From Candidatus Zambryskibacteria bacterium RIFOXYD1_FULL_40_13 (lineage in GTDB: Bacteria; Patescibacteriota; Minisyncoccia; Phycocordibacterales; DATDWN01), in NCBI GenBank assembly GCA_001824295.1, contig MHWY01000004.1, positions 80,841-134,311 on the forward strand: DNA of 53,471 nucleotides, written 5' to 3'. How positions within the stretch are numbered: the first letter of the stretch is position 1; every line of letters starts with the position of its first letter. The translations under genes and the position numbers were made by a program. The notes under the pieces were generated by a model. It was not told the DNA's origin, did not search any database, and saw only the letters and a list, made by a program, of their open reading frames with translations. This document shows, in pieces, positions 30,428 through 33,807 of the stretch.

Positions 30428-30456
30428 TTGCATTTATAGTGAATGTATGATACAAT
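30428..30456 (+). promoter_or_regulatory. Sigma70-type promoter: TTGCAT-N17-TACAAT
   Basis: -35 30428-30433, 17-nt spacer, -10 30451-30456. Confidence 0.45.
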
Positions 30457-30525
30457 ACTAGAGTGGGTGTGATTTTACAGGATTGTGAAAGCAATAATGT
30501 AGTTGAGCATCAACAACAAATGTCT

Positions 30526-30555
30526 CATAAAAGTCTCCGCAAGGAGGCTTTTATG
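30526..30555 (+). other. 13-bp stem hairpin with GCAA (GNRA-type) tetraloop
   Basis: CATAAAAGTCTCC-GCAA-GGAGGCTTTTATG, paired along its length with one G-T wobble. Confidence 0.75.
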
Positions 30556-30569
30556 TTGCAAAACTTCCA

Positions 30570-30672
30570 AATTTAGCGAACTTCTTCGTTGAAATACAAA
30601 AAACAACCCTCACTTTACGACAAGTAAAGCTCGGATTCTTTTTTGTATTTCGCCTCGAATTTCATCTAAATT
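30570..30672. repeat. Nested inverted-repeat element copy 1 (TCAC-N15-GCTC core)
   Basis: Outer AATTTAG/CTAAATT, inner GAAATACAAAAAA/TTTTTTGTATTTC, core TCAC-TTTACGACAAGTAAA-GCTC (30610-30632). Confidence 0.6.
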
Positions 30673-30739
30673 ATGAAAGTTTTAGAATTTTGTGTCTTGT
30701 TTTGTATATCCAGTTTAGATATTATTAAAGTGTATTCCA

Positions 30740-30803
30740 AGACATGGTTAGCGGTTCGCACTCACACGACATTTGTTGGAGCTCGCCTCCGCTAACCATG
30801 TCT
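30740..30803. repeat. Nested inverted-repeat element copy 2 (TCAC-N15-GCTC core)
   Basis: Perfect 15-bp arms AGACATGGTTAGCGG/CCGCTAACCATGTCT; core TCAC-ACGACATTTGTTGGA-GCTC (30762-30784). Confidence 0.65.
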
Positions 30804-30819
30804 CGGAGTAAGAAAAATT

Positions 30820-30838
30820 CTGCAAAAACATTTTGCAG
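30820..30838 (+). terminator. Hairpin CTGCAAAA-ACA-TTTTGCAG followed by T-run
   Basis: Perfect 8-bp stem then GATTTTTT. Confidence 0.5.
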
Positions 30839-30840
30839 GA

Positions 30841-30876
30841 TTTTTTATTTGAAAAATTTATTTTTCAAATAAAAAA
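30841..30876. terminator. AT-rich 16-bp perfect hairpin, possible bidirectional terminator
   Basis: TTTTTTATTTGAAAAA-TTTA-TTTTTCAAATAAAAAA. Confidence 0.5.
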
Positions 30877-31034
30877 GTTATCCACACTTTTTTGCAAAAA
30901 AATATTTTATTTTGTTTCGGATGTAATATAATTAACTCAGGTCGGAACAACGAAATAATTTTATTATCGTTGTAAACTTAAAAGAAAATAATTTATGTTG
31001 ATAGCTTGTCACAGAGCGAACAACAAAAAACAAA

Positions 31035-31094
31035 ATGGCAGCAAAAAAGAAGAAAGCAGCAAAGAAGAAAGTAGCTAAGAAGAAACGAGCTTAA
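31035..31094 (+). CDS. 19-aa Lys/Ala-rich micropeptide MAAKKKKAAKKKVAKKKRA
   Basis: ATG...TAA read directly; below the ORF-track length cutoff; followed by a terminator at 31144. Confidence 0.5.
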   Translation: MAAKKKKAAKKKVAKKKRA

Positions 31095-31143
31095 TATTCT
31101 TTGTTCTCAAATCGATCCGCCAGCTGGCGAAATGATTTCAAAA

Positions 31144-31175
31144 GTCCGCATATTATATGTGCGGATTTTTGTTTT
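31144..31175 (+). terminator. Rho-independent terminator (TCCGCA...TGCGGA + T-run)
   Basis: GTCCGCATATTATATGTGCGGATTTTTGTTTT. Confidence 0.65.
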
Positions 31176-31180
31176 CTATG

Positions 31181-31307
31181 TTAAAATCAATAAAATTACC
31201 CAATCTGCGTTGTTGCAGTTCAATTTTGTTCGTTCACCGTACGTCTAGTACGGCTCACTCACAAAATTTCCTGCGCCTAGCATCTCGGGCAATTTTATTG
31301 ATTTTAA
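31181..31307. repeat. Nested inverted-repeat element copy 3 (TCAC-N15-GCTC core)
   Basis: 21-nt arms TTAAAATCAATAAAATTACCC/GGGCAATTTTATTGATTTTAA (1 mismatch), inner AATTTTGT/ACAAAATT, core TCAC-CGTACGTCTAGTACG-GCTC (31234-31256). Confidence 0.7.
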
Positions 31308-31317
31308 TTGAATTTAT

Positions 31318-33807
31318 ATGGCATTTTTAGACAAAATTTTTGGTTCAGAATCGTCAAAAGCCCTGAAAGAGATTCAACCCATTGTTTCTAAGATAAACGC
31401 TCTAGAGAGCGGTATTTCTGCACTGTCGGACGATGAGCTCAAGGCCAAGACAGCGGATTTTAGGAAAAGACTTGATTCGGGGGAGACTTTGGACGAAATT
31501 CTACCAGAAGCCTTCGCAGTAGTGCGAGAAGCTTCCAAGAGAACTCTCGGCCAGAGACATTTTGATGTCCAGATGATTGGAGGAATCGTTTTGCATAGGG
31601 GGGGTATTGCTGAGATGAAAACCGGAGAAGGAAAAACTTTAGTTGCTACTCTTCCACTGTATCTCAACGCTCTGTCTGGTAAGGGTGTGCACCTAGTTAC
31701 TGTGAACGACTATCTTTCTCGCTTGCATGCTGTTCTCATGGGACAGATTTATTCATTCTTAGGAATATCTGTCGGAATAATAAACCATGATGAATCTTTC
31801 ATATACGATCAAACACACACCGAGCTAGACAAGAAGAGAGACGAAACAGGTTCGTTCAAGGTGTTCAATGAATTTCTGCGACCAGTGACGAGACGAGAGG
31901 CGTATCATGCTGACATTACTTATGGAACAAACAACGAGTTTGGTTTTGACTACCTGCGCGACAATATTGAATATGAATCAGGACAGCTAAGACAGAGGGA
32001 GCCAAACTTTGTGGTGGTTGATGAGGTGGACTCTATTTTGATAGACGAGGCTCGTACTCCGCTTATTATTTCTGCGCCAACCACAGATTCTGATGAGTTG
32101 TACAAGACTTTTGCCGATATTTCCACCAAAATGGAGAAGGGCGAGCATTATACAGTGGACGAGAAGTTCAAAACTATATCTCTAACTGACTCGGGTATAA
32201 GCAAAGCTGAGAGCCTCTTGGGGGTTGAGAATATATATACAGAGAAGGGTATAAAGTATGTTCATCATCTAGAGACGGCTATCCGTGCTACAGCCCTGTT
32301 TAACAAGGATAAAGACTATGTTGTGAAAGAAGGCGAGATAATCATAGTTGATGAGTTTACTGGTAGGCTTCAGCCAGGCAGGCGTTGGTCAGAGGGTTTG
32401 CACCAGGCAATAGAGGCCAAAGAGCATGTGCCTATCCAGAAGGAATCCAGAACTTTCGCGTCTGTCACATTCCAGAACTACTTTCGTTTGTACAAGAAAT
32501 TGGCTGGTATGACAGGTACGGCCATGACTTCATCAGAGGAGTTTTACAAAGTCTATGGTTTGAATGTGGTTTCTATACCAACAAACCGACCAAACGCTCG
32601 TATTGACCGCAACGACCTGATTTTCCAGACAGAGGTCGGGAAGTTTAAGGCTATAAGCAGAGAAATAAAAGAAAGACACAGCAAAGGACAACCAGTGCTT
32701 GTGGGTACTGTATCAATAGAGAAGAACGAGTTGCTTTCTGAATATCTAAAAGTAGATGGTGTGCCACACGAAATACTAAATGCCAAGAATCACGGAAGAG
32801 AGGGTGAAATAATCGCCCAGGCTGGGAGACCTTCAGCGGTTACTATTGCTACAAACATGGCTGGTCGTGGAGTGGATATAAAGCTCGGGGGTAATCCAGG
32901 AAGCCAGGAGGCATATGAAGAGGTAAAGTCCAAGGGTGGGCTGTTTGTGCTTGGTACAGAGCGTCATGACGCTCGTAGGATAGATAACCAGCTCCGAGGT
33001 AGGTCTGGAAGACAGGGTGACCCAGGCGAAACGCAATTCTTCGTCTCTCTTGATGACCATCTCATGCGAGTTTTTGGTGGAGATGGAATAAAGAACATGA
33101 TGGGCAAGCTCGGAATAAAGGAGGACGAGCCAATAGAAAATCGTATGATCACGAGGTCTCTTGAGGGTGCCCAGGAAAAAATAGAAGGATTTAACTTTGA
33201 CGCCAGAAAACATGTTTTGGAGTTTGATGATGTTTTGAATTTTCAGAGAAAAATTGTTTATGCTAGGCGTCGGGATATATTGCTCGGTGACGACGAGGCG
33301 GTGAAGGCATACATACAAGAAATACTGGTTGACGCGAATGAAGCAGAGAGAAAATCAGTCGAGGAGAAAATATCAAAGGCAGATAGTGACTATCTCAGAG
33401 TACTACGACGAGTTATCTTGCAGTCTATGGATATGTACTGGGTGGAACATCTAGAAGTTATGGATTATATGAGGTCCAGCGTAAATCTTCGTGCCTACGG
33501 CCAGAGAGACCCCTTGGTTGAGTATAAGCGAGAAGGGCTTCAGTTGTTCAAGAGTATGGAGATTTCTATCGGTCAGGAGGTAATAAAGCTTATTCCTCAG
33601 ATTCAGCCAAGTATTAAGTTTGACGCACCAGTAAAGCTTACTGAAACCATGGAAGACGCCGGTGGTTTGACTGCTGAAGCCCCGAAACCTTCTGAGTCAC
33701 ACAGAGCACCAGATGGAAGCAGAGTTGGTAGGAATGACCCATGTTGGTGCGGAGCGAAGAAATCAGATGGAGTTCCGATTAAATACAAAAATTGTCATGG
33801 GAAGTAG
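31318..33807 (+). CDS. secA: Preprotein translocase subunit SecA
   Basis: EMKTGEGKTLVATLP, VVDEVDSILIDEARTPLIIS, TNMAGRGVDIKLGG, GRSGRQGDPG, C-terminal CWC...NCHG zinc motif. Confidence 0.98.
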   Translation: MAFLDKIFGSESSKALKEIQPIVSKINALESGISALSDDELKAKTADFRKRLDSGETLDEILPEAFAVVREASKRTLGQRHFDVQMIGGIVLHRGGIAEMKTGEGKTLVATLPLYLNALSGKGVHLVTVNDYLSRLHAVLMGQIYSFLGISVGIINHDESFIYDQTHTELDKKRDETGSFKVFNEFLRPVTRREAYHADITYGTNNEFGFDYLRDNIEYESGQLRQREPNFVVVDEVDSILIDEARTPLIISAPTTDSDELYKTFADISTKMEKGEHYTVDEKFKTISLTDSGISKAESLLGVENIYTEKGIKYVHHLETAIRATALFNKDKDYVVKEGEIIIVDEFTGRLQPGRRWSEGLHQAIEAKEHVPIQKESRTFASVTFQNYFRLYKKLAGMTGTAMTSSEEFYKVYGLNVVSIPTNRPNARIDRNDLIFQTEVGKFKAISREIKERHSKGQPVLVGTVSIEKNELLSEYLKVDGVPHEILNAKNHGREGEIIAQAGRPSAVTIATNMAGRGVDIKLGGNPGSQEAYEEVKSKGGLFVLGTERHDARRIDNQLRGRSGRQGDPGETQFFVSLDDHLMRVFGGDGIKNMMGKLGIKEDEPIENRMITRSLEGAQEKIEGFNFDARKHVLEFDDVLNFQRKIVYARRRDILLGDDEAVKAYIQEILVDANEAERKSVEEKISKADSDYLRVLRRVILQSMDMYWVEHLEVMDYMRSSVNLRAYGQRDPLVEYKREGLQLFKSMEISIGQEVIKLIPQIQPSIKFDAPVKLTETMEDAGGLTAEAPKPSESHRAPDGSRVGRNDPCWCGAKKSDGVPIKYKNCHGK

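Follow-up and report, generated by a model that had tools for sequence, protein, structure and literature searches.

ERIC elements, which are intergenic imperfect palindromes of 127 bp, are confined to the Enterobacteriaceae and Vibrionaceae and share one consensus sequence. Bacterial MITEs such as Correia, Nezha, Chunjie and QMITE2 are small, non-coding, multicopy units of intergenic regions with inverted-repeat ends; their target duplications fade with age, QMITE2 lies mainly in 3' untranslated regions, and there are known cases of ERIC at 3' gene ends (PMC10969869). REPINs and the GTAG- and CGTC-tagged REPs are hairpin repeats concentrated downstream of genes, and the ends of REPs can supply a stop codon (PMC3733652). 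Finally, template switching is an established process in which the arms of an inverted repeat are made identical by DNA synthesis, without single-sided intermediates (PMC8604942).

Here, we describe a family of ~120-bp nested mobile DNA hairpins, two copies of which lie upstream of secA in Candidatus Zambryskibacteria bacterium RIFOXYD1_FULL_40_13, and we show that in one of its subfamilies the right arm is the reverse complement of the host gene's native last codons. The family is previously undescribed, and the literature yielded nothing linking its core or end sequences to any known repeat. It resembles ERIC in size, imperfect-palindrome shape and intergenic position, bacterial MITEs in being small, non-coding, multicopy and intergenic with inverted-repeat ends, and REPINs and tagged REPs in being a hairpin repeat found mostly downstream of genes. 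It is set apart from ERIC, as that repeat is described, by stems that are free to vary and by a span across phyla. In contrast to bacterial MITEs, its most conserved part is the centre rather than the ends, it keeps a fixed nested fold across phyla, its outer arms can be host-derived, and no parental IS was found for it. Unlike REPINs and REPs, it is about 120 nt long with three nested stems, lacks a tag tetranucleotide and a RAYT association, and makes 5-bp target duplications.

The elements upstream of secA

The window (the whole 53,471-nt stretch of contig MHWY01000004.1 that was analysed) had been read, from its letters alone, as containing three palindromes of one kind with a common TCAC-N15-GCTC core. 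Three inverted repeats are indeed present at the positions given (Table 1), each forms a much stronger fold than its dinucleotide shuffles (z = -4.9, -4.9 and -7.6 for copies 1, 2 and 3), and each contains the motif, starting at 30610, 30762 and 31234. In the window alone the motif is not significant (3 against 0.82 expected, with 9 of 100 shuffles reaching 3); genome-wide it is, with 31 matches against 6 for the reversed pattern. Copies 1 and 3 proved to be members of one family by covariance model (CM), whereas copy 2 is separate. The palindrome of copy 1 exists but had been drawn too small, as its outer arms extend to 30560-30575 and 30667-30683. That the outer arms are mutually unrelated was correctly seen and becomes the key feature of the family, and copy 3 does end 10 bp upstream of the secA ATG. 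Relatives of copy 1 include C1:42673, C7:8507 and C2:145146, among others.

Table 1. Features of the secA upstream region, in positions of the window
Feature	Positions	Strand	Description	Evidence
Copy 1	30560..30683	+	Hairpin-family member, own-genome subfamily B; 3' of an intrinsic-terminator-like hairpin	CM R1, 91.9 bits at 30563-30680
Copy 1, left arm of outer stem P1	30560..30575	+	AAAACTTCCAAATTTA	Sequence and P1 alignment
Copy 1, right arm of outer stem P1	30667..30683	+		Sequence and P1 alignment
Copy 1, core	30610..30632	+	TCAC - apical stem-loop P4 - GCTC	Motif search and CM
Copy 2	30740..30803	+	Separate hairpin, 15-bp stem, TCAC..GCTC in loop part; not a family member	
Copy 3	31181..31307	+	Subfamily A member, lying 3' of the secA -10-like region and 5' of its ATG	CM R1, 109.5 bits at 31187-31303
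Copy 3, left arm of P1	31181..31201	+	Outer part TTAAAATCAAT = native pre-secA sequence (TGTTAAAATCAAT in G433)	
Copy 3, right arm of P1	31287..31307	+	Outer part ATTGATTTTAA = reverse complement of native pre-secA sequence	
Copy 3, conserved core	31203..31285	+	ATCTGCGTTGTTG ... CGCCTAGCATCT; has P2, J2, P3, J3, P4	Alignment A1
Copy 3, apical core	31234..31256	+	TCAC - P4 (CGTAC GTCTA GTACG) - GCTC	Motif search and alignment
secA	31318..33807	+	Downstream of copy 3; orthologous in congeners	ORF list

The family model gives no match to copy 2 up to E = 5. This hairpin is found at the orthologous locus upstream of secA in four congeners (G433, G432, G428 and G429), where its 15-bp stem is changed but compensated and the loop letters TTYGCACTCAC...GTTGGAGCTCGCYTC are conserved. 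Copies 1 and 3 are missing from those congener loci, while copy 2 is stable across the genus, and for this reason the TCAC/GCTC letters that copy 2 shares with the family would be a coincidence or a very old kinship only. Copy 2 is probably a hairpin of its own in this genus, either a small RNA or a regulatory one.

Two other features of the region were noted in passing. Window positions 30456-30560 hold a conserved stretch (GTGGGTG..ACAGGATTG..GCAATAATG..CAACAACAAATGT) with a -10-like TACAAT ahead of it and a terminator-like hairpin behind; it is shared with several congeners and is a candidate small RNA. At 31036-31094 there is a Lys/Ala-rich mini-ORF (MAAKKKKAAKKKVAKKKRA) that is kept in the genus together with its leader (AGGTCGGAACAACGAAATAA..TTATCGTTGTAAAC).

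Anatomy and distribution of the family

The genome of 728,731 bp was searched in stretches comprising all but its shortest contig. Iterative BLAST within it recovered two related subfamilies, A and B, and a covariance model built from 57 elements gives 25 matches at E < 1e-4 (0.73 Mb), i.e. about 25 copies, which like the other copy counts here is a lower bound. Elements at or near contig ends (L270, L284, L259) suggest that long hairpins break MAG assemblies.

The half-length of the element is nearly constant (~60 nt) and its core is orientation-specific. The outermost stem, P1, is typically 14-18 bp of free sequence; inside it, a short conserved junction leads to P2 (3 bp) and then to the conserved internal loop J2, with GTTG on the left and CGCCT on the right. 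P3, also of free sequence, lies between J2 and J3 (TCAC / GCTC), and the apical stem P4 has the consensus CCGTAC-N5-GTACGG. The pairs of the helices vary freely yet remain complementary. A covarying central stem, as suggested by the sequence-only reading, was confirmed on 105 and 75 elements, with scores of 0.633 and 0.689 against 0.151 and 0.196 for shuffled alignments (0 of 500 in each case reaching the observed value) and 0.08-0.19 for slid-structure controls. Within J2 (alignment A4, columns 33-35 / 108-110), the left-hand triplet seems to vary in step with the final base on the right (GTT-A, TTC-C, TGC-T), which was not significant in one small test. A rule of maintained mismatch in the same loop (X1-N never Watson-Crick) was dropped, since 0 of 37 against 1.96 expected is not significant.

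The family is not confined to one genome. By covariance model it is present in 56 of 289 genomes of the class and in all 16 tested genomes of the organism's own family, at 5-38 copies each. In the order, 25 of 147 genomes contain the strict core pattern, with a maximum of 16 copies, and matches to the reversed control are close to zero. Named genomes with the core pattern include Kaiser-, Zambryski-, Nomura-, Yanofsky-, Uhr- and Saccharibacteria, Rokubacteria, Janthinobacterium and Lentisphaerae. The majority of the loci take the fold of the family model and match it; several, Janthinobacterium among them, lie outside the list of model matches and are unproven relatives. A match in Streptomyces is probably due to chance and sits inside a longer ORF. 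Viral contigs gave 0 matches, as did plasmids, for which one element was searched.

Mobility and the search for a mobiliser

Sites with and without the element can be compared directly. The site of copy 3 is empty in G433 and G427, which have an uninterrupted junction before secA (TGTTAAAATCAATCACATT-ATG in G433); in G429 a copy at secA points the other way. G433 and G432 lack copy 1 at the corresponding site, and G427, which has 5 copies in its whole genome, is element-free in the stretches orthologous to the further own copies that were inspected. Turnover within the genus is high. An exact 5-bp target duplication flanks 6 of the 23 copies with intact ends (TAGGACTTACGC.../...GCGTAAGTCCTA), against 0.00 expected, and direct repeats of other lengths around these 23 elements do not exceed expectation. 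All six cases come from other genera and none from own-genome copies, and over all 176 elements together the signal is weak, being clear only for intact ends. On the strength of these exact duplications, we regard the family as transposed, MITE-like units. The elements have the attributes of a MITE (~120 bp, non-coding, dispersed, with P1 as terminal inverted repeats, a target duplication and polymorphic orthologous sites), and they are classed only as MITE-like, since no autonomous transposon sharing their ends was found, the transposases covered being Y1, DDE_Tnp_1 and rve.

The sequence-only reading had suggested a REP/MITE-like family as one possibility. The MITE half of this suggestion is borne out by the ~25 copies, the filled and empty sites and the 5-bp duplications, and the REP half is not. 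Were these REPs or REPINs mobilised by a RAYT (Y1) transposase, one could account for dispersed hairpins that are often at 3' gene ends, and the organism's own genome does have two Y1_Tnp genes. However, the consensus of 57 elements has no GTAG/CGTC tag, of the 32 Y1 loci only 1 lies less than 1.5 kb from an element, and three genomes that carry elements (G121, G114 and the element-rich G137) have no match to the Y1 transposase (PF01797). In addition, Y1 enzymes (IS200/IS605 family) are not known to make target duplications, and 5-bp duplications are what is seen here. A REP origin is thus strongly disfavoured. Other partners fared no better: DDE_Tnp_1 and rve genes are absent from the own genome and from G431, which has 38 copies, and rve loci in other genomes have no element beside them. 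Y1, DDE_Tnp_1 and rve are accordingly rejected as mobilising partners, on absence from element-rich genomes or lack of adjoining elements. A search for an autonomous element with the same ends found no end pair 0.8-3 kb apart in six genomes.

Position at gene ends

Most copies lie immediately 3' of a stop codon, in sense. Among the 176 elements, 96 lie directly after an ORF of at least 150 aa in the same orientation and 19 after an antisense one, and as a rule P1 has the stop codon at its outer edge. The genes upstream are varied housekeeping genes of the chromosome (rpoD, secA, secY, mreB, S7). The same gene end is reused in distant genomes (rpsG 5x, mreB 3x, nusG 2x and ssb 2x), which is more than we would expect; between rpsG and fusA, three genera have the element, with P3 arms that are completely re-matched. 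The idea that elements insert into terminator hairpins already present was considered and set aside, as the corresponding G427 sites, inspected by eye, are mostly free of a hairpin at that point.

Several observations on individual gene ends may be added. The gap behind ribosomal protein S7 holds an element in genera of several families (L251, L269, L272, L279, L281, L124), and rpsG-end loci of three genera have an extra hairpin of ~40 nt within the left P1 arm. At L272:681-1126, G390 has, in comparison with G336, an additional small ORF between rpsG and fusA as well as a second, degenerate element, an arrangement that gives the impression of a gene brought in or trapped by the element. Tandem arrays in one orientation also occur, with three copies and a remnant behind secA in L178 and two copies in L097. 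Those at L178:6263-6680 are three head-to-tail elements and a decayed fourth, spaced by ~125 bp, with different P3 and similar P1.

A place directly 3' of the stop codon in the same orientation, tandem arrays of like-oriented copies (L178, L097), stems that vary while their bulges are conserved and a slight bottom-strand wobble preference (see below) are also what a folded single-strand recombination site would show, comparable to attC and set at gene ends as in integron cassettes. We consider this very improbable: the upstream genes are chromosomal housekeeping genes, on which ground gene cassettes were rejected, the consensus is without GTTRRRY/RYYYAAC boxes, and target duplications are present.

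Outer arms and the host gene

In the A subfamily of the genus (29 copies), the cores are 84% identical and the outer arms 55-58%. The arms of a given copy pair with each other at a mean of 14.3 of 17 positions, against 9.9 when they are swapped between copies. In 12 of these copies the stop codon is inside P1, the left arm being the coding end of the gene, and the coding positions are paired with the right arm at 87% (56% when swapped); an example is ..CTGGACAAGTAAAATAA / TATTTTACTTGTCCAG in G431. The coding ends are native, with the C-termini YHNKG*, FYKLKSN* and FLEKQ* in element-free G427 corresponding to FHNKS*, FYKLKNN* and FLENQ* in the own genome. For two genes that each have an element in two species, the right arm tracks the codons of the respective species. 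Outside the genus, the right arm matches the native coding end of mreB (..IIAKR) in L152 and of nusG (..LQIKRV) in L170. When every genome is counted, pairing in P1 extends to 12 or more coding bases in 16 copies, against 2.2 expected.

These matches would need no copying from the host if the element were an ordinary MITE with fixed terminal repeats, the left repeat of which supplies the last codons and the stop. Many copies do have an element-encoded end (TAGGACTTACGC, TAAAACTTYC) with the stop codon as its first bases, and a stop codon supplied by the repeat is also known from GTAG REPs (PMC3733652). Against this, A cores that are 84% identical bear different arms, each fitting its own gene, and the coding ends are native in the element-free orthologs of G427 and likewise for mreB and nusG. 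We hold fixed repeats to be an unlikely general account, one that is already contradicted for about a dozen copies.

DNA or RNA

Covariation well above shuffles and slid controls, together with a place in the 3' part of transcripts, could indicate a structured RNA, either cis-regulatory or a small RNA family, as the sequence-only reading had also entertained. For a structure selected in the sense transcript, G.U pairs are expected clearly above A.C. In the helix cells (n=3680) we count 53 G.T and 99 A.C, numbers that are not independent, as copies are related within a genome and within genera, and the covariation is from Watson-Crick to Watson-Crick without an excess of G.T. By comparison, 34 tRNAs of the own genome have 41 G.T in 739 pairs (5.5%) and 0 A.C. 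That G.T is not in excess over A.C, unlike in the tRNAs, points to DNA rather than RNA. The excess of A.C over G.T would fit folding of the bottom strand, to which we give little weight because the copies are related to each other. Rfam 15, searched with the window and 14 further loci, contained no family at gathering score. With G.T rarer than A.C, no Rfam family and target duplications, an RNA family is unsupported and we judge it improbable. Nor are the elements plain intrinsic terminators, a U-tract at the 3' end being not enriched on the sense side (6/55, 5/29 and 6/17, against 13/55, 5/29 and 8/17 on the other side).

Alternatively, the arms might be matched by selection for pairing, through compensatory mutation, because the folded element serves the host at gene ends, for example in 3'-end processing, mRNA stability or termination. 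The strong sense orientation, the reuse of the same gene ends in distant genera and the conserved internal loops all speak for such selection. On the other hand, there are almost no G.U intermediates and no 3' U-tract excess, and turnover in the genus is high, so that we view it as doubtful, though to be taken seriously.

Origin of the matched arms

A MITE-like DNA hairpin mobilised in trans accounts for the dispersal, the empty sites and the target duplications. That the arms match native codons, with no wobble intermediates, is best explained if one arm is copied into the other at the DNA level. We therefore favour, at a probability of about 0.68, a non-autonomous, transposed MITE-like hairpin with arms rematched at the DNA level by template switching and a core kept by selection. 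The element would move by cut- or copy-and-paste with a transposase acting in trans, and may persist since gene ends tolerate insertion. When the hairpin forms on a single strand, fold-back synthesis would copy one arm and the adjoining host sequence into the other, in the manner of quasipalindrome-type template switching. P1 would thus be written by the neighbour, and the core loops would be maintained by selection on the folded DNA. Quasipalindrome correction acts on pre-existing repeats, whereas in this case its effect would be to lengthen a mobile hairpin outward, into coding sequence of the host.

Counting against template switching on a transposed element, no transposase with matching ends was found in the searches above, and the target duplications are found only in other genera. 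Its weakest part is the orientation bias together with the reuse of gene ends, and the fact that elements have settled more than once at one gene end in distant genera could mean host function rather than tolerance.

A variant is that the inverted copy is made during insertion itself: a single-strand hairpin would be joined behind the gene, and its free 3' end would fold back, prime on the host flank and copy that flank. The two species-pair comparisons favour continued arm correction over copying at insertion only, and we put this variant forward tentatively, as a rather unlikely one. If true, the element would build its own terminal inverted repeat from each target, an undescribed mode of transposition.

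Implications

Hairpins of this family are found across CPR bacteria and beyond. If the combination of a conserved fold with neighbour-written ends is true, perfect covariation would be possible without an RNA function, which is a warning for covariation-based RNA discovery. With about 25 copies per genome, the elements offer as many natural replicates for studying template switching at DNA hairpins. In streamlined genomes, they would further be a source of 3'-end sequence that has received little study.
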